64,000 nucleotides of DNA from Celerinatantimonas diazotrophica (GTDB lineage Bacteria; Pseudomonadota; Gammaproteobacteria; Enterobacterales; Celerinatantimonadaceae), in NCBI RefSeq assembly GCF_004339545.1, contig NZ_SMGD01000013.1, positions 1 to 64,000 on the forward strand. The letters are read 5' to 3'. Position 1 is the first letter of the stretch. Each line of letters starts with the position of its first letter. The position numbers and the translations under genes were made by a program. Under the pieces are notes generated by a model. It did no database searches, was not told the DNA's origin, and worked only from the letters and a program-made list of their open reading frames with translations. Positions 3,396 to 10,594 of this stretch are shown here, in pieces.

Positions 3396-4040
3396 TCATC
3401 GAGGAAAGACGCACTGAGGTTTTACTAGGGACTGTTGACCTTTTAATTCCCGCCATTCTTGGCGCAAAATACCGTATTTGACACTATCGTAATAATGCCC
3501 TTTGTAATAACGAACTTTGCGTAACCTTGCTTCTTGTTTCAGCCCAACTTTCTGAGCGCAACGCATCATGCCAGGATTCCCTGACCAGGTGGTCAATCCA
3601 ACACGCTCAATAGCAAGCACTTGAAAAAGGTGCTCAATCCAAAGAGGCAACGCTTGACTGGCAATACCTCGCCCCCAATACTGAGAATCATAAATAATCA
3701 CACCCATTTCTAGCCAACGAGTCTGTTCACATTCCCAATAAAAACTAACTGAACCAATCGGATTATCGTTCACACAAATCAACTGCATATCCTCACCGTT
3801 ATACAGCCTGAGAAAAACGTTTTGTGCAAATTGTTCTAATGTCGGTTCCTGATATGGAAAATATGGGCCATTAAATTCAGTCCATAATGGATCTTTCGTC
3901 ACTAATGCATGCAAAAATTCAAGTTCATCTAGTTTGGATTTACGAATAGAGATCGTATTTTCAGAGTTCAAAGTTTGCCTTCCCTCATTTGCTGACGAAG
4001 CTAGTTTAGTTTGAGCAGTTGCTAATTCCCATACTTCCAA
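3396..4040 (-). CDS. GNAT family N-acetyltransferase with a C-terminus altered by a repeat end
   Basis: A protein of up to 214 residues. The GNAT domain starts near residue 30 (ISIRKSKLDELEFLHALV). It continues through IGSVSFYWECEQTRWLEMGV, the acetyl-CoA loop SQYWGRGIASQALPLW and GLTTWSGNPGMMRCAQKVGL, the usual RimJ/RimL-type C-half. The first 25 or so residues look unlike the family, so the true start may be internal. The last residues after EWRELK are encoded by a remnant of the mobile repeat (CTAG plus the 15-base terminal repeat) and sequence beyond it, so the original C-terminus has been replaced. The substrate is unknown. Confidence 0.75.
   Translation of the reverse strand: MEVWELATAQTKLASSANEGRQTLNSENTISIRKSKLDELEFLHALVTKDPLWTEFNGPYFPYQEPTLEQFAQNVFLRLYNGEDMQLICVNDNPIGSVSFYWECEQTRWLEMGVIIYDSQYWGRGIASQALPLWIEHLFQVLAIERVGLTTWSGNPGMMRCAQKVGLKQEARLRKVRYYKGHYYDSVKYGILRQEWRELKGQQSLVKPQCVFPR
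3426..3445 (+). repeat. Solitary element end inside the acetyltransferase 3' end
   Basis: CTAG followed by GGACTGTTGACCTTTT matches the terminal repeat of the elements exactly, but the next bases are acetyltransferase coding sequence, not element interior. The rest of the element is missing. This looks like a deletion derivative of a former insertion. Confidence 0.75.
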
Positions 4041-4143
4041 TGAGTTTTAAAGGGGCAGTATGACATTCCCCCTAGCTAATAAGCTGCTTTTAGTCTAGAC
4101 TTGCGACTCATTTTGTCGTGTCTTTTATAACGTGTGAGTTGCT

Positions 4144-5406
4144 ATGTCTTTTGCCGAACTAGGCTTATCTAAACCCATTACCGAATCCTTAAATGCGCTC
4201 GGTTATTCCAAGCCAACCCCTATTCAAGCCCAATCGGTTCCAGTGATTCTCAAAGGCAAAGATGTATTGGCAGCAGCACAAACAGGCACAGGTAAAACAG
4301 CTGCATTTGTATTACCGCTACTTGAGCGGTTACGTCAGCAAAAGCCATCACAAACTAAAGAAGTTAAGGTACTTATTGTTACCCCGACTCGAGAATTAGC
4401 CGCTCAAATTGATACCAATATCGATGCTTATGCCAAAAATTTACGCATCCGTCACCAAGTGATCTTTGGGGGAGTCAGTGCTAAAAGTCAAATCCGCCAG
4501 TTAATTCCTGGCTGTGAACTATTGACAGCAACACCGGGTCGATTACTGGACATGTGCTCGCAAGGAATGTTAGATCTATCTAAAGTGCAGACACTGGTAC
4601 TTGATGAAGCAGACCGAATGTTGGATATGGGATTTATTCACGATATTCGTCGTCTGTTGAAACTACTGCCCAAAAAACGTCAAAATTTACTTTTTTCAGC
4701 AACCTTTGCAGGTGCAATTCGCCAACTAGCGCAATCACTTCTGGATCATCCTATTGAAATTACCGTGGATCGTGAGAATCAGACCGCTCGTAAAGTTGAA
4801 CAATATTACACCTTAGTTGATAAAAACGATAAAACAGGGTTACTTAAACAATTAGTAACTGAAAACAAATGGCAACAAGTTTTAGTGTTTACTCGCACCA
4901 AACATGGCGCCAACCGTCTAACCCAACGTCTAGAACGGGCGAATATAAATGCGGCAGCCATTCATGGTAATAAAAGCCAGAATGCTCGAGTCAGTGCGCT
5001 CAACGGGTTTAAAGATGGTCGTATTGAAGTCCTTGTTGCAACTGATATCGCCGCGCGTGGGCTTGATATCAAACAACTCCCACAAATTGTCAATTTTGAT
5101 TTGCCAAACATTCCTGAAGATTATGTCCACCGGATAGGTCGCACCGGGCGAGCAGGACAATCAGGAACTGCCTATTCACTGGTCAGTGAAGAACAACTAT
5201 TGCTCTTAAACGACATTGAGAAATTCATTAAATCTCCCATTCATGAACTCAGTGTTGATGGCTTTAATGCGTCATTTAACCGTCAAAGCGCTCAACTGGC
5301 CCAAAAAACGCCAAAAACGCCAAAAACGCCAACCAGTCAACGACATGGAGCTCCGAGTCGCAATCGCCCTCGTAAGAATGCCTCATCAAAATCATCATCG
5401 AGATAA
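4144..5406 (+). CDS. rhlE: DEAD-box ATP-dependent RNA helicase RhlE
   Basis: A 420-residue cytoplasmic RNA helicase. All core motifs are visible: Q motif (GYSKPTPIQAQSVP), motif I AAQTGTGKT, PTRELAAQ, TPGRLLD, DEAD as LVLDEADRMLDMGF, SAT in LLFSATF, and the second-domain motifs VLVATDIAARGLDI and YVHRIGRTGRAG. Length and the short basic tail fit RhlE, which unwinds RNA and assists ribosome assembly and cold adaptation. The tail holds a near-perfect nine-base tandem repeat giving KTPKTPKTP, which may vary in length. The gene is monocistronic. A TTTATAAC box about 15 bases before the ATG could be its -10, but that is close for a promoter. Confidence 0.93.
   Translation: MSFAELGLSKPITESLNALGYSKPTPIQAQSVPVILKGKDVLAAAQTGTGKTAAFVLPLLERLRQQKPSQTKEVKVLIVTPTRELAAQIDTNIDAYAKNLRIRHQVIFGGVSAKSQIRQLIPGCELLTATPGRLLDMCSQGMLDLSKVQTLVLDEADRMLDMGFIHDIRRLLKLLPKKRQNLLFSATFAGAIRQLAQSLLDHPIEITVDRENQTARKVEQYYTLVDKNDKTGLLKQLVTENKWQQVLVFTRTKHGANRLTQRLERANINAAAIHGNKSQNARVSALNGFKDGRIEVLVATDIAARGLDIKQLPQIVNFDLPNIPEDYVHRIGRTGRAGQSGTAYSLVSEEQLLLLNDIEKFIKSPIHELSVDGFNASFNRQSAQLAQKTPKTPKTPTSQRHGAPSRNRPRKNASSKSSSR
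5301..5330 (+). repeat. Nine-base tandem repeat within rhlE
   Basis: Three consecutive units of ccaaaa(a)acg encode the KTPKTPKTP stretch in the disordered tail of RhlE. Replication slippage here would change tail length without breaking the frame. Confidence 0.75.
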
Positions 5407-5536
5407 AATCTAAATGATTACCGCTTTTTGTTAATGGTTGTTTGTTAAAAAACAGCCCCTGGGAAACTGCCTATTTGGGCACTTTATCAAAATGCGGTAT
5501 GATTTATAGTAAGTATGATTTAATGTCGAGGTAGGT

Positions 5537-6631
5537 ATTACTCAGCCTATATCCAAAAATCAGCAGCCATTCTCCCAGTGGATAAATCGCTATCGCTGGT
5601 GTATTCCAGTTTTATGCTGTGTATTGGTGGTTGCATCACTCTCTCTAGCACGTTCATTTTTATTTCCCATTGTTGCTTCGTGCCTCTTAGCGCTGATGCT
5701 TTCTCCTCCAGTGCAGTTGCTAATACGTTGGCATGTTCCCAAGATCCTAGCCAGCCTCATTATGATCACTTTCAGTTCCAGTTTAGTGATCGGTGCCGGC
5801 TATTTGACCACACCCGCGATTACCCATTGGATCAAACAAGCACCAATCAGCTTAGTCAAAATGCTCGATGAAGAACAAGAACTCAAAGATACCATCAGCT
5901 CAATTAAGAAGACATCTAAGCAAGTATCTAATGCAGTAAGCCAGATCATTAGCCAGTCAGATACGCGTCGGCAAGTTCTCTATCAGCAGCAAGACTGGCT
6001 GAATAAGTTGCTGAACGAATTAAAAACCAGTATGACATTACTGCTGTTGATTATGACTCTCACGCTTTTTTTACTGGTCAGTGGCGATGGTCTTATTTTT
6101 AATTTAATACGGCTCAACCATAACCGTCTAACACGACGCCAATTGATTGCCCTTTGGCGACGACTGCCCGGTGAAGTTGGTCGTTATTTAGGTGCTGCAT
6201 TTCTCACGAATCTGGTAACCGGACTGATCACTAGTTCGATACTCTGGTATTTAAATGTTCCAATGCCATGGGTCTGGCTGGTGCTCGTCACCTTTGCCCG
6301 GTTTATTCCATATATTGGGGTTGCCGCTGTTACTTTGCTTATTTTTGCAGTGGCACTGAGTGATTTTCACCATTTTTGGTTGGCTTTCACTCCAGCTGCT
6401 ATCTTTTTAGTTTTAACCACAATTATCGGCATGTTTGTTGATCCGCTGGTCCACGGCATGCGACTTAAAGTTAATCCAATTGTCGTATTTGTCTCAGTTA
6501 TCTTTTGGGGATGGTTGTGGGGAATCGTCGGCGCAATCATTGCGGTTCCTATGCTCACTGTGGCGTTAGTCGTATCACAAAGCATGGGGTGGCACACGCT
6601 TACTCGAATTGTTACAACGAGGTCATCATGA
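5537..6631 (+). CDS. AI-2E family transporter (PerM-like membrane protein)
   Basis: A membrane protein of the AI-2E/PerM family with about eight transmembrane segments: paired hydrophobic segments at the N-terminus, a polar central region (DEEQELKDTISSIKKT) and a C-terminal membrane block. RFIPYIGVA and the GIVGAIIAVPML end are strong family landmarks. The conserved family N-terminus (WINRY before the first membrane helix) lies upstream of the first usual start codon, TTG at 5624. The open frame continues upstream to an ATT at 5537 preceded by GAGG, so I place the start there with low certainty. Transported substrate is unknown. Its stop overlaps the amidoligase start as ATGA, making it the first gene of a four-gene operon. 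Confidence 0.8.
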   Translation: MTQPISKNQQPFSQWINRYRWCIPVLCCVLVVASLSLARSFLFPIVASCLLALMLSPPVQLLIRWHVPKILASLIMITFSSSLVIGAGYLTTPAITHWIKQAPISLVKMLDEEQELKDTISSIKKTSKQVSNAVSQIISQSDTRRQVLYQQQDWLNKLLNELKTSMTLLLLIMTLTLFLLVSGDGLIFNLIRLNHNRLTRRQLIALWRRLPGEVGRYLGAAFLTNLVTGLITSSILWYLNVPMPWVWLVLVTFARFIPYIGVAAVTLLIFAVALSDFHHFWLAFTPAAIFLVLTTIIGMFVDPLVHGMRLKVNPIVVFVSVIFWGWLWGIVGAIIAVPMLTVALVVSQSMGWHTLTRIVTTRSS

Positions 6632-7623
6632 AAAGACTATTTTTTCAACCTGAGCAAACCACCACTAGTCAAGCACAACCCCGTCATGTCGGATTCGAGC
6701 TGGAATTTTCAGGGATTGATCTGAAAACCGCCGGCCGAGTGATGGCTGAAGCATTTAATGGCGAATTCTTGCTGATCTCAGAAGCGGAAGGAAAAGTCAA
6801 AACCAGTCTGGGTACATTTAAAATCGAAATTGACTGGCAGTTTGCTAAAACAACAGCTCGAGAACGCATTGCCCAACGAGCCCAAGAACTAGGAACGACC
6901 AAGGCCGATGATCCATTTATGGAATGGATGGCAAAACTGGCAACCATTGCAGTGCCCGTTGAAGTGGTTTGCCCACCTATTGCTTTCAATGAACTTGATA
7001 AGTTAGAACCAATGGTTGAAGCACTCCGCAATAATGGCGCTTTAGGCACTGGAAAATCATTAATCTACGCCTTTGGAGTGCACATTAATCCAGAACTCCC
7101 CAGCTACGATAGCGCGATGATTATCCGTTACATAAAAAGTTTCGTACTAGCACAACACTGGCTGGTTAAACGCCATAAAGTTGATCTCATTCGCCGAGTA
7201 ACACCTTATATTAATCTTTATCCTGAGCCTTACAGCGAACTGGTCATTGGTTATCAAGGCGATGAACCCCTGTCACAGATTATCGACGATTATCTGGCTT
7301 TTAACCCAACACGCAACAGAGCATTAGATATGTTGCCTCTTTTCATGTACTTAGATGAATCACGGATTATTAGCAAGTTAAATGATCCTCTCGTGAATGC
7401 CCGACCAACATTGCATTATCGATTGCCGAATTGCGAGATTGAAAAGGCGGATTGGAGTTTGTCTCAAAGCTGGAATATCTGGTGCACTGTTGAAGCGATA
7501 GCCGCAAACCCGACCTTGCTGGCACAAATGAGTCAAGACTGGATTGCGGATGACCGCTTGGCTAATCGTTATTCGGAGAAAGTATGGCAAAAACTCGACC
7601 AAATCGACAAAAACCACTTATAG
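6628..7623 (+). CDS. Putative amidoligase enzyme
   Basis: A protein of 331 residues of the glutamine-synthetase-fold putative amidoligase family. HVGFELEFSGIDLKTAG near the N-terminus is the signature start, with acidic metal or ATP-site residues. GTFKIEIDWQFAKT, EVVCPPIAF and FGVHINPELP are later conserved parts. Published comparative genomics predicts that these enzymes form amide bonds in small molecules or peptides, with a partner glutaminase supplying ammonia. The ATG at 6628 overlaps the stop of the AI-2E gene, and the glutamine amidotransferase gene starts 40 bases before its stop, so translation is probably coupled. No substrate can be read from the sequence. Confidence 0.85.
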   Translation: MKRLFFQPEQTTTSQAQPRHVGFELEFSGIDLKTAGRVMAEAFNGEFLLISEAEGKVKTSLGTFKIEIDWQFAKTTARERIAQRAQELGTTKADDPFMEWMAKLATIAVPVEVVCPPIAFNELDKLEPMVEALRNNGALGTGKSLIYAFGVHINPELPSYDSAMIIRYIKSFVLAQHWLVKRHKVDLIRRVTPYINLYPEPYSELVIGYQGDEPLSQIIDDYLAFNPTRNRALDMLPLFMYLDESRIISKLNDPLVNARPTLHYRLPNCEIEKADWSLSQSWNIWCTVEAIAANPTLLAQMSQDWIADDRLANRYSEKVWQKLDQIDKNHL

Positions 7624-8285
7624 GCGTTACCGGCAATGCGAAGTACTGGTCACCCTCATGGTTTGCATTGTCGAGTATTCTGCGTTGCTGTGGCGCCCAA
7701 GCAAAACGGATTAGTATTCGCCATAGTGCGAACATCAATCGCCTGGATGCACTGATTATCAGTGGTGGGGATGATATTCACCCATCACTTTATGGCGAAG
7801 AGGAAATGCCTAAAGCCAAATACGATCAACCACGAGATGAACTTGAAATCCATTACATCCGTTACGCGTTGGAACAAAATTTACCGATGCTGGGGATTTG
7901 TCGCGGCTATCAATTATTAAACGTTGTCTGCGGTGGCTCACTCTATGACGATATCCGCCCCATGCGTCAAAAAACCTCAAACTTCAATACAATTTTGCCG
8001 CGGAAAACCGCATACTTGACCGAGCAAACCCAGCTTTTTCAACTTGTTAATCGACCTAAAATCCAAATCAACAGCCTCCACCACCAAGCAATTTATCAGG
8101 TAGCGCCCGAGTTTAAGGTTGCGGCAACTGATAAAGATGACTTTATTCAAGCCATTGAGCATATGAATCACCATACAATGCTAGGTGTGCAGTGGCACCC
8201 TGAATATCTGTTCTACCGACATAGCCAACGCCAACTATTTCATTGGCTCATCGCACAAGCGAAACTATACCGCCGACACCAATAG
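7584..8285 (+). CDS. Class I glutamine amidotransferase-like protein (peptidase C26 / PuuD-like)
   Basis: A 233-residue class I amidotransferase-fold protein. IISGGDDIHPSLYG is the oxyanion strand region typical of gamma-glutamyl-GABA hydrolases. LGICRGYQLLNVVCGG carries the nucleophile cysteine, and MLGVQWHPEYLF supplies the His-Glu pair, so the triad is complete. It either releases ammonia from glutamine for the preceding amidoligase or hydrolyses a gamma-glutamyl amide. GGAG lies five bases before its ATG, inside the amidoligase gene. The operon position strongly suggests the two enzymes act together. Confidence 0.88.
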   Translation: MAKTRPNRQKPLIGVTGNAKYWSPSWFALSSILRCCGAQAKRISIRHSANINRLDALIISGGDDIHPSLYGEEEMPKAKYDQPRDELEIHYIRYALEQNLPMLGICRGYQLLNVVCGGSLYDDIRPMRQKTSNFNTILPRKTAYLTEQTQLFQLVNRPKIQINSLHHQAIYQVAPEFKVAATDKDDFIQAIEHMNHHTMLGVQWHPEYLFYRHSQRQLFHWLIAQAKLYRRHQ

Positions 8286-8289
8286 GACA

Positions 8290-8730
8290 ATGATGCTTAG
8301 CTATCTTATTTTATTCGCTGCCTCTTTTCTGGCTGCAACTATCTTGCCGTTTTATTCAGAAATTTTTCTATATGCGATGCTCAATCAAGGACATAGCGCA
8401 GCATTACTCGTAATTGTTGCAGCCTTAGGTAACACGCTCGGCTCTGTCGTAAACTGGTATTTAGGTTTATATATCCTGCGTTTTAAAAACAGACGATGGT
8501 TTTATTTTAAAGACAAACAAATTGATAAAATGCAGCGCTGGTTTAATCGATATGGTCAGTGGAGCCTATTATTCGCTTGGCTTCCCGTCGGAGGCGATGC
8601 ATTAACGTTGATTGCAGGGATCATGAAAGTTAACATAGTAAACTTTCTGATTTTGGTCGGAATTGGTAAAACAGTGCGTTACATTGGGGTTATCTATTTA
8701 GCCCATCTAACGCATGGATGGCTTACTTAA
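8290..8730 (+). CDS. YqaA family membrane protein
   Basis: A membrane protein of about 146 residues of the YqaA/SNARE-associated (DedA-like) type. It has an N-terminal hydrophobic hairpin, AALGNTLGSVVNWYLG as the family signature, a central polar loop (FKDKQIDKMQRWFNRYG), then WLPVGGDALTLIAGIMKVN and a final helix. Two adjacent ATGs at 8290 and 8293 lie just after the stop of the amidotransferase gene (8285), so it is the last gene of the operon. Function is not known; DedA relatives are linked to lipid transport. Confidence 0.85.
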   Translation: MMLSYLILFAASFLAATILPFYSEIFLYAMLNQGHSAALLVIVAALGNTLGSVVNWYLGLYILRFKNRRWFYFKDKQIDKMQRWFNRYGQWSLLFAWLPVGGDALTLIAGIMKVNIVNFLILVGIGKTVRYIGVIYLAHLTHGWLT

Positions 8731-8756
8731 GCATGCACTCCGATAGGAGCACATGC
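8731..8756. terminator. Weak hairpin between convergent operons
   Basis: GCATGCACTCC and GGAGCACATGC pair with two mismatches around a four-base loop, immediately after the yqaA-like stop and before the stop of the convergent MFS gene. No clear T tract follows. Confidence 0.4.
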
Positions 8757-8767
8757 CAGTAACACGC

Positions 8768-10072
8768 TTAAACTTCAGGCAACCTAGTCGCCAACAACGC
8801 ACCTAAAAAACCCATCATCGCTAACACAGCTAAAATTCCAGCTAAGCCAATTAACGGTTGCAACAAACTAACAAAGCCAGTCAATAGTAAAATGACCCCA
8901 ATGAGCGTATTACTCACTGAAACATAATCAGTTCGTTTATTTCCTTTACCCAGATTAACCAAATACGTTTTCCGCCCTAGCCTCACGCCCTGATGAGCAA
9001 TAGTGAGCAAAAAATACGCTCCTGGGATAAACCAAGCACCATAGTGACCTATTAAGGCTGTGCCAACAGAGATAGCAATCACAGCCCCTAACAGCGCACT
9101 AACCAAGGAGGCAATAATCATGACTTTACGGCTCGATATATCTGCAAACCAGCCCCAAAAAGGACCCGAGATGAGTTCAGCAAGACCACCAGCAGCTAGA
9201 AAAAATGACAATTGCAATAATGTTGATTGCCCTTGTTGCTGAGCAATCGCCACATAATATGGAGCACTTAAGGCGGAACAAAGCATCAGCGCACGAGCTA
9301 GCACAAAATAGCCAAACGGCTTATCTTTAAAGATCAGTGACAACCGTTTAAACGCTAACCATAATCCATTACGACCCCCATCAACAGCGCCTGGTTGTTC
9401 TATAACGCGGCTATAAATTAGTGCACCGAACGCCCAGCAGGCGGCCGCCAATACAAAGGCTAAGGTATATACAGTTAAGCTATGTCGCTGGGCAATATCA
9501 AGACTAACGCCCACCGCGACCAAGACAGTCACTAACCCGGCACCACTAGTAGCAAAACCACTGATGCGACCTCGGCGCTTTTTCTCTACGGTCTTACCCA
9601 AAACATCTTTAAAAGCAACCGAGTTAAGCCCTCTTGACAAGCTGAAAATACTTAGGAATAAAATGATCAACCAGCCTGCTGTCATTGCGTGGCTAAAATG
9701 AATACATAGCGCCACGGCGATCATCGACAAACTCATCAATAGGCTGCCGACAACCCACACATTGTGTCGAACGGCCAACTTTCTGACAAAATTGGCGATA
9801 ATAAGCTGAGGTAATAATGACCCCGATTCACGAATGGGTACAAGCCACCCTAAAAATACAGCCGGAACTCCTAATGACTGCATCACCCAAGGCAATGTGA
9901 CTTTAGGGTTCATTAAGGCATCGCCACTTTTACTTAAAAATTGAGCAAGAAGGATTTTAAAGAAGTTGCCTGCCACAATTTGGCACTGTGAATCATCAAT
10001 ATCTTGGCAAGCTCTGGCATCCTCTTCACTGCCGATTTTTTCATACAGTGCTTGTGATACTTTCCCAGCCAT
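8768..10072 (-). CDS. Major facilitator superfamily transporter
   Basis: A 434-residue inner-membrane protein with about twelve hydrophobic segments. GWLVPIRESGSLLPQ and GRISGFATSGAGLV mark the N-half, and the second half begins after the polar stretch around residues 215-235. Loops are short and basic on the presumed cytoplasmic side, for example VFKDVLGKTVEKKRRGRIS. An N-terminal extension of about 40 residues with two cysteines precedes the first helix. No substrate-specific motif is recognised. It appears to be monocistronic. Confidence 0.8.
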   Translation of the reverse strand: MAGKVSQALYEKIGSEEDARACQDIDDSQCQIVAGNFFKILLAQFLSKSGDALMNPKVTLPWVMQSLGVPAVFLGWLVPIRESGSLLPQLIIANFVRKLAVRHNVWVVGSLLMSLSMIAVALCIHFSHAMTAGWLIILFLSIFSLSRGLNSVAFKDVLGKTVEKKRRGRISGFATSGAGLVTVLVAVGVSLDIAQRHSLTVYTLAFVLAAACWAFGALIYSRVIEQPGAVDGGRNGLWLAFKRLSLIFKDKPFGYFVLARALMLCSALSAPYYVAIAQQQGQSTLLQLSFFLAAGGLAELISGPFWGWFADISSRKVMIIASLVSALLGAVIAISVGTALIGHYGAWFIPGAYFLLTIAHQGVRLGRKTYLVNLGKGNKRTDYVSVSNTLIGVILLLTGFVSLLQPLIGLAGILAVLAMMGFLGALLATRLPEV

Positions 10073-10162
10073 GACCCCTCCTAAAAATAGCGATCGTATT
10101 TATACAGCAACAGACTAAAACAGGATGATAACTGCGCAGCCATGAACAAGCTGCGCGATACT

Positions 10163-10594
10163 TTACTTAGTATTACGAACAATAACACTATGACGGGCAC
10201 TACAGATAAGTCGATCAGGGTGAGCTTGATCACGAATATCAATATGCCATAGCTGCAATAATCCGCCCAAACGAATCGGTGTGGCTTTAGCGACCACCTG
10301 ACCAGATTTCATGGGCAGAAGATGGTTAGCACTAATATCAACGCCTAGGATATGACACCCTTGCGGACAAGCAAAAAAGCCTGCAATACTACCGACCGTC
10401 TCCGCTAAAGCAGCGCTAGCACCACCATGTAGCAACCCTACGGGTTGTCTTACGGCATTAGTCACTGGCATAGTTGCACATAGATAATCATCTCCAAACT
10501 CGCAAAAACGTGTCTGGGTAGCTTCAAGCATAGTACCTGGGATCAGTGCATTTAATCGCTCTAAACTGATCTCTTTTTGCCAAATCTGACTCAC
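10163..10594 (-). CDS. menI: Hotdog-fold acyl-CoA thioesterase, MenI-like
   Basis: A 143-residue protein matching E. coli MenI (YdiI) closely along its length as I remember it. It starts with IWQKEISLERLNAL and contains QPVGLLHGGASAALAETVGS, whose glutamate is the catalytic residue, and GVDISANHLLPMKSGQV. MenI hydrolyses 1,4-dihydroxy-2-naphthoyl-CoA in menaquinone synthesis. Its start abuts the stop of the ydiJ-like gene, the same neighbour as in E. coli, so the two form an operon. A related broad-range thioesterase (EntH-like) is the alternative, but the context favours MenI. Confidence 0.88.
   Translation of the reverse strand: MSQIWQKEISLERLNALIPGTMLEATQTRFCEFGDDYLCATMPVTNAVRQPVGLLHGGASAALAETVGSIAGFFACPQGCHILGVDISANHLLPMKSGQVVAKATPIRLGGLLQLWHIDIRDQAHPDRLICSARHSVIVRNTK

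Follow-up and report, generated by a model that had tools for sequence, protein, structure and literature searches.

The window analysed here, the first 64,000 nucleotides (nt) of contig NZ_SMGD01000013.1 of Celerinatantimonas diazotrophica (NCBI assembly GCF_004339545.1), carries a four-gene operon in which an amidoligase gene and a C26-type, glutamine amidotransferase (GATase)-like gene are flanked by genes for two membrane proteins, one of the AI-2E family and one of the YqaA-type DedA group. The order and coupling of these genes, the conservation of the amidoligase and C26 residues, the location of the operon in a block whose site has no insert in a congener, and the joining of various kinds of membrane protein to the amidoligase-C26 pair in other genomes are all observed directly. 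Our best explanation, which we hold tentatively, is that the operon is part of a horizontally mobile, envelope-linked cassette for gamma-glutamyl-type amides. As its family predicts, the amidoligase would consume ATP in coupling an amine to a side-chain carboxylate of the glutamate type and the co-translated C26 protein would cleave gamma-glutamyl-type amides, so that one class of molecule would be ligated and then either cleaved again or trimmed. A membrane-bound form may be carried across the inner membrane by the YqaA-type DedA protein, and a soluble form by the AI-2E protein (elsewhere AmpG, a major facilitator superfamily (MFS) protein or another DedA protein).

Results

Layout of the four-gene operon

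The genes of the operon are listed here with their Pfam matches and E-values in brackets.

5537..6631, forward strand: AI-2E family (PF01594) membrane protein gene (PF01594, 4.9e-45)
6628..7623, forward strand: amidoligase (Amidoligase_2, PF12224) gene, 331 amino acids (PF12224, 8.8e-60)
7584..8285, forward strand: C26/PuuD-type class-I GATase-like gene, 233 amino acids, putative triad C106-H205-E207 (PF07722, 3.4e-50; PF00117, 3.9e-19)
8290..8730, forward strand: YqaA-type (COG1238-like) DedA/VTT membrane protein gene, 146 amino acids (PF09335, 6.5e-15)

All four proteins scored above their family cut-offs in a Pfam scan. The amidoligase ATG (6628-6630) shares the letters ATGA with the AI-2E stop codon TGA (6629-6631), the C26 ATG at 7584 lies 40 nt inside the amidoligase gene, which ends at 7623, and a 4-nt gap separates the C26 end at 8285 from the DedA ATG at 8290 (alternatively 8293). 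The open reading frame coordinates thus bear out the ATGA overlap, 40-base overlap and four-base gap given in the initial annotation, and these junctions, along with the tight amidoligase-C26 junctions found elsewhere (57 of 63, below), support the reading of the four genes as one translationally linked operon. The AI-2E frame opens with ATT at 5537, and its first in-frame ATG, GTG or TTG is the TTG at 5624, which as a start would truncate the first hydrophobic segment. Since the 29 residues before this TTG can be aligned with the N-terminal parts of two relatives, the gene likely has an AUU start at 5537, or else the frame reflects a quirk of sequence or annotation.

Survey of amidoligase loci

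PF12224 was searched for in overlapping samples of genomes, with carriers numbering 17 of 274 in the class, 11 of 197 in the order, 24 of 398 in the phylum and 24 of 85 in the order of genome G025. A tblastn search found amidoligase relatives in 11 plasmid records, eight of which were examined (H6, H7 and H9 were left out), and a search of two genomes from the order of G214 added nothing. After setting aside L032, L046, L057 and L058, whose amidoligase matches were weak, partial or missing on a window-based profile, as well as the G613 and G667 hits, we counted 74 wide loci with a strong amidoligase, the window excluded.

A C26 gene stands directly behind the amidoligase gene in 65 of these 74 loci. 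The two genes overlap at 47 of the 63 measurable junctions, and at 57 of the 63 they either overlap or have no more than 10 nt between them, so their coupling is more than chance; a listed gap of 355 nt belongs to L043, in which the start is not placeable. A YqaA-type DedA gene directly follows C26 in 15 of the 74 loci, from about ten genera (the match in L042 is partial, at 61 bits), and lies two genes from C26 in L035. AI-2E genes were found in three loci. Two of them, L207 and L208, have the window order of AI-2E, amidoligase, C26 and DedA with overlaps of 1, 4 and 4 nt and are close relatives from one genus of another order; in the third, L038, the AI-2E gene is 24 nt behind the DedA gene. 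The initial annotation had made its reading depend on the presence of YqaA and AI-2E genes beside the amidoligase in relatives, and neither was absent. Given that AI-2E is only a minority partner, the amidoligase-C26 pair is the core of the system.

No adjoining C26 gene was found in nine of the 74 loci (L047, L101, L102, L104, L106, L108, L109, L110 and L206). At L047 (7750-9521; genome G247), the amidoligase without C26 is the second in its genome and adjoins a same-strand ExoD-family gene. The amidoligase gene of L206 (4597-6898; genome G805) is followed by a gene for a multi-pass membrane protein, which by eye we take to be PqiA-like. In L106, on an Azospirillum argentinense plasmid, the genes behind the amidoligase encode a two-component system, and some 3 kb beyond lies a DedA gene.

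Locus flanks otherwise vary from genus to genus. Of 154 flanking proteins, 112 were family-scanned, drawn from 45 of the first 52 loci; seven near-duplicate loci, very long or short proteins, some others (all of those from L104) and the 22 later loci L206-L227 were left out of it.

The amidoligase

The window amidoligase scores 203 bits against PF12224 (cut-off 22). In an alignment of 75 amidoligases, from the 74 loci and the window, R19, E24, E26, D69, E112, N154, R229, D234, R259, H263 and R265 are identical in all 75 proteins, E67 is kept in 72, and position 152 is His in 59 and Gln in 16. The initial annotation had also staked its reading on conserved amidoligase residues, and with these invariant positions that reading was not refuted. 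From their conservation and the family, the eleven residues are probably catalytic.

For a putative glutamine-synthetase-like (GS/GCS) ligase fold, a structure prediction from two alignment rows (the window and L019) reached a pLDDT of 50.3 and had only meaningless matches in the PDB, none of them at E <= 0.001, and profile comparison with single E. coli GshA and YbdK sequences found no match. The amidoligase profile gave chance-level matches only against the PDB (best E 0.092). Among viral sequences, no relative was confirmed with the amidoligase profile in viral contigs, and tblastn of the window amidoligase against 50,697 phage records found no match; the LUZ24 protein as query found 302 phage records at E <= 1e-3. 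In the portions of the amidoligase literature searched, no PF12224 amidoligase was reported to have been assayed.

The C26 protein and its relatives

The C26 protein is well above the cut-offs of both PF07722 (171 bits, cut-off 20.5) and PF00117 (69.5 bits, cut-off 22.8). We aligned it with the coupled C26 proteins of other loci, 62 of 65 once L037, L043 and L044 were set aside as partial, and found the C106, H205 and E207 triad as well as Q110 of the Cys-x-Gly-x-Gln segment in all 63. The C26 profile matched Lin1909 in the PDB at 165 bits, 7d4r, 7d50 and 7d53 (a group that is presumably Pseudomonas SpuA) at 134-140 bits, and PuuD at 119 bits, with the GATases of GMP synthases at no more than 54 bits. 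The window protein is homologous to E. coli PuuD over its full length (HHalign 3.7e-31). The best NCBIfam model is likewise PuuD, at 79.1 bits under an equivalog cut-off of 266, and we therefore rejected the identification of the protein as PuuD proper. By sequence, the nearest characterised relatives of the C26 protein are gamma-glutamyl-amide hydrolases. The initial annotation had read the operon as a ligase with an ammonia donor and membrane proteins; the membrane-linked unit stands, whereas the role of ammonia donor is not established.

Amidoligases on other mobile DNA have partners of other folds. An AIG2/gamma-glutamyl cyclotransferase (GGCT)-like gene follows the amidoligase gene in Tn6164 of C. 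difficile (PMC3485107), and of three prophage regions of C. clostridioforme listed with an amidoligase, 13-alpha and 13-epsilon also have a gamma-glutamyl cyclotransferase reading frame and prophage 5 is listed without it (PMC11318856). The amidoligase cluster of phage LUZ24 contains a UPF0131 gene. Because partners of different folds, C26 and GGCT-like, both cleave gamma-glutamyl bonds by family, gamma-glutamyl chemistry is favoured, and the reading of C26 as a hydrolase seems slightly ahead of that as an ammonia donor.

Membrane partners

The initial annotation had named the first gene of the operon an AI-2E exporter, which holds as a family label only. PF01594 includes an AI-2 exporter along with Na+/H+ antiporters (PMC7221264), and in a tree of the family the window protein groups with those of L138, L207 and L208 (support 100/99), away from TqsA and YhhT; details of the tree are unsure because several branches are long, the window's included. 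An identity as the AI-2 exporter TqsA is therefore unsupported, and on the same tree we set the protein aside as a sign of quorum sensing. The L038 AI-2E protein falls apart from the window clade, which suggests that AI-2E may have been recruited a second time in that locus. The L138 protein is from genome G072, in which the amidoligase is on another contig and the 14 kb examined at the AI-2E relative has no gene of the module.

The YqaA-like label of the initial annotation was borne out for the DedA protein, which has 41% identity to E. coli YqaA and 48-64% to 12 module partners. Two segments recur across the DedA set, an acidic one (SE) and one of the WxPxGGDALT type that lacks basic residues, their positions being taken from the motif. 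With an acidic first re-entrant segment and a second one without basic residues, the window protein has the features given for YqaA/COG1238 proteins (PMC10127716); the module DedA proteins differ from E. coli YqaA in a common RRWF segment that the latter lacks. Judged by the published criteria (PMC10127716), these segments speak against the flipping of undecaprenyl phosphate and for lipids that are uncharged or cationic as the possible substrate. The protein was rejected as the undecaprenyl-phosphate flippase UptA, with 48.9 bits against an NCBIfam cut-off of 300. The cargo of YqaA-type DedA proteins is described as little characterised (PMC10127716). E. coli K-12 (L113, 2814883-2816940) offers a further case of yqaA beside a glutamate ligase gene: on one strand, yqaA is followed 72 nt downstream by gshA, which encodes a gamma-glutamyl ligase.

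Elsewhere a neighbouring position is occupied by other membrane proteins. In L044 and L096, the pair has a 4-nt overlap with a DedA-superfamily gene that does not belong to the YqaA-type set, a gene for an AmpG-family muropeptide transporter (TIGR00901, 494.8 bits, cut-off 350) lies upstream of it with a 4-nt overlap in L033, an AmpG relative is 34 nt upstream in L215, from the same genus as L033, and an MFS_3 exporter-type gene is 31 nt upstream in L107. That AmpG, non-YqaA-type DedA and MFS proteins are neighbours of the pair in this way favours a membrane-linked role. We set aside the AmpG link as general evidence for muropeptides because it comes from one genus only.

Co-occurrence was also counted in the class genomes, the window genome included and kinship ignored. 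AI-2E relatives (E <= 1e-30) were found in 7 of 17 amidoligase genomes and 9 of 257 others, and MFS relatives (E <= 1e-20) in 9 of 17 and 12 of 257, respectively, both more often with the amidoligase than expected. As these statistics ignore shared ancestry, they are not used as proof.

A probable inserted block at a site empty in a congener

The initial annotation placed the unit at 5537-8730. This holds for the four-gene operon, but the inserted block is larger and takes in a convergent MFS gene (8768-10072). The block and its surroundings are as follows.

5407..10162, no strand: inserted block of five genes, bounded by rhlE and the PaaI-type thioesterase gene; the site is empty in same-genus genome G434
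8768..10072, reverse strand: MFS transporter gene (PF07690), within the insert and convergent with the operon
4144..5406, forward strand: rhlE-like DEAD-box helicase gene, left flank, outside the module
10163..10594, reverse strand: presumed PaaI-type thioesterase gene, right flank, outside the module, next to a ydiJ-like gene in G434 too

Just one further genome of the genus, G434 (L183), entered the comparison. Its rhlE gene ends at 5153 and its thioesterase gene at 5231, leaving 77 nt between them, where the window has an interval of 4,756 nt that holds the AI-2E, amidoligase, C26 and DedA genes and the convergent MFS gene. Blastn matches between the window and G434 break off at 5192 and restart at 10236. 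Because neither the amidoligase nor an MFS relative was found in any of 11 other genomes of the family, and their AI-2E family members are distant (at most 27% identity), gain of the block is the simpler and more probable history, and its loss in G434 the less likely one.

Sequence features around the block gave no sign of how it was inserted. There was no tRNA or Rfam match in the window, no integrase among the seven family-scanned genes from 3396 to 10072, no repeat of at least 14 nt inside either end stretch of the block, and no repeat joining the block ends among the five of 11 direct families and the four inverted pairs listed. Promoter and terminator scans were at chance level, and the window MFS protein had no sequence match in the PDB. 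Relatives of all five insert genes, including the MFS gene beside the amidoligase cluster, lie within about 7 kb in L038, with FMN_red and Exo_endo_phos genes between AI-2E and MFS.

Three genomes from one genus of another family (L086, L087 and L089) also have an rhlE-like gene no more than about 3 kb from C26, perhaps by chance. The YdiJ-like frame of L176 (genome G364) has one internal TAA.

Discussion

Relation to known systems

Iyer et al. 2009 reportedly predicted amidoligase-GATase neighbourhoods and suggested a role in the modification of cell walls or metabolites. The window pair, a PF12224-type amidoligase with a GATase-like gene, resembles that prediction, and as the initial annotation had stated, the pair is already known from it; what is mapped here beyond it are the YqaA-type DedA, AI-2E and AmpG partners and the five-gene insert. 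The literature searched gave no report of an amidoligase with AI-2E or with DedA, and Iyer et al. 2009 may mention either.

Several characterised systems combine similar parts. The Puu pathway of E. coli also has a ligase (PuuA) and a C26 hydrolase (PuuD), of which the window C26 protein is a full-length homologue, but here no oxidase or dehydrogenase is in the insert, the ligase is PF12224 and the PuuD equivalog cut-off is not reached. Peptidoglycan amidation by MurT-GatD likewise combines a ligase and a GATase whose genes are co-transcribed, and has an envelope target; MurT is similar to Mur ligases, whereas the ligase here is PF12224 and its GATase-like partner is PuuD-like (PMC3267633, PMC5871853). 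Orf22-Orf23 of C. difficile Tn6164 (PMC3485107) and the clusters of phages LUZ24 and UFV-P2 (PMC3890496) have in common with the window an amidoligase (of PF12224 or so named) and a gamma-glutamyl-active or GATase partner on mobile DNA. These Firmicutes and phage pairs have a cyclotransferase or class II GATase where the window has C26, and the phage clusters differ further by a RimK-like or ATP-grasp gene (PMC3890496). No DedA or AI-2E gene is annotated within the 12 kb examined in LUZ24.

Weighing the explanations

A number of observations weigh against a gamma-glutamyl amide cassette linked to the envelope. No transporter is obligatory, since 59 of the 74 loci have no YqaA gene directly behind C26 and 71 have no AI-2E gene. 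Nine of the 74 amidoligase genes have no adjoining C26 gene. The evidence from AmpG is confined to one genus. Proteins with at least four hydrophobic segments make up 7 of 36 close same-strand neighbours (at least 100 amino acids) and 47 of 557 genes overall (at least 150 amino acids), a crude count by which the neighbours are only mildly richer. No recurrent intermediate enzyme between ligase and hydrolase was found in the scanned flanks, and a ligase and a hydrolase acting on the same bond would be futile unless another step came between them. C26 residue 141 (window 8004-8006) is Lys in 58 of 63 proteins and His in Lin1909, 7d4r and PuuD, so the specificity of the module proteins may have shifted relative to these three homologues; K141 is a possible marker of it. 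LUZ24-like phages have a class II GATase alongside the amidoligase (PMC3890496), and the tight amidoligase-C26 coupling is equally expected for two subunits of a glutamine-dependent enzyme.

These last two points lead to the main rival, a glutamine-dependent amide synthetase in which a C26 glutaminase would feed ammonia to the amidoligase for the amidation of a carboxylate that is secreted or part of the envelope, in the manner of MurT-GatD on the peptidoglycan of Gram-positives. The frequent overlaps suit two subunits, the PF00117 score and the invariant Q110 are as such an enzyme would have them, and the class II GATase of LUZ24-like clusters offers a parallel. Set against these are the gamma-glutamyl hydrolases as nearest characterised C26 relatives by sequence, the nine amidoligases without C26, the GGCT-like partner in Tn6164 (PMC3485107), and the fact that no amidoligase-C26 fusion was noticed in the loci, in which no systematic fusion search was made. 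On balance we regard a synthetase as a serious but somewhat doubtful possibility. The membrane genes may instead be passengers, with AI-2E, YqaA and MFS carried along by a cytosolic amidoligase-C26 system. The rarity of AI-2E and YqaA among the other loci, the otherwise variable flanks and the separation of MFS from the amidoligase in seven of the nine class genomes with both (window genome included) would fit this. We consider it unlikely, given that the same four-gene order with its overlaps recurs in another order (L207 and L208, one genus), that 4-nt overlaps with the pair are also seen for one AmpG gene and for two DedA genes outside the YqaA-type set, and that the module YqaA proteins are a tight set by their identity to the window's. 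Amine utilisation in the manner of Puu, in which the amidoligase would gamma-glutamylate an amine, other enzymes would oxidise it and C26 would release the product, appears improbable. The C26 protein does resemble PuuD and the gene ahead of the pair in L103 encodes an aldehyde dehydrogenase, but no oxidase or aldehyde dehydrogenase is within the insert, and the 112 flanking proteins scanned include just two Aldedh and two DAO domains and two to three each of some other FAD/NAD domains.

Implications

The gamma-glutamyl amide cassette thus remains the reading we tentatively prefer. A bolder and rather improbable version is mobile wall-fragment editing. AmpG or AI-2E would import or export muropeptides or other gamma-D-glutamyl peptides, C26 would cut them, the amidoligase would amidate them, and the YqaA-type DedA protein would flip a lipid-linked product. 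If true, it would mean altered recognition of the cell wall by phages, hosts or antibiotics. The overlapping operon ties the amidoligase to a YqaA-type DedA protein, so the product of the ligase may be the cargo of DedA or its stand-ins, and this link could yield the first substrate for the COG1238 DedA proteins.

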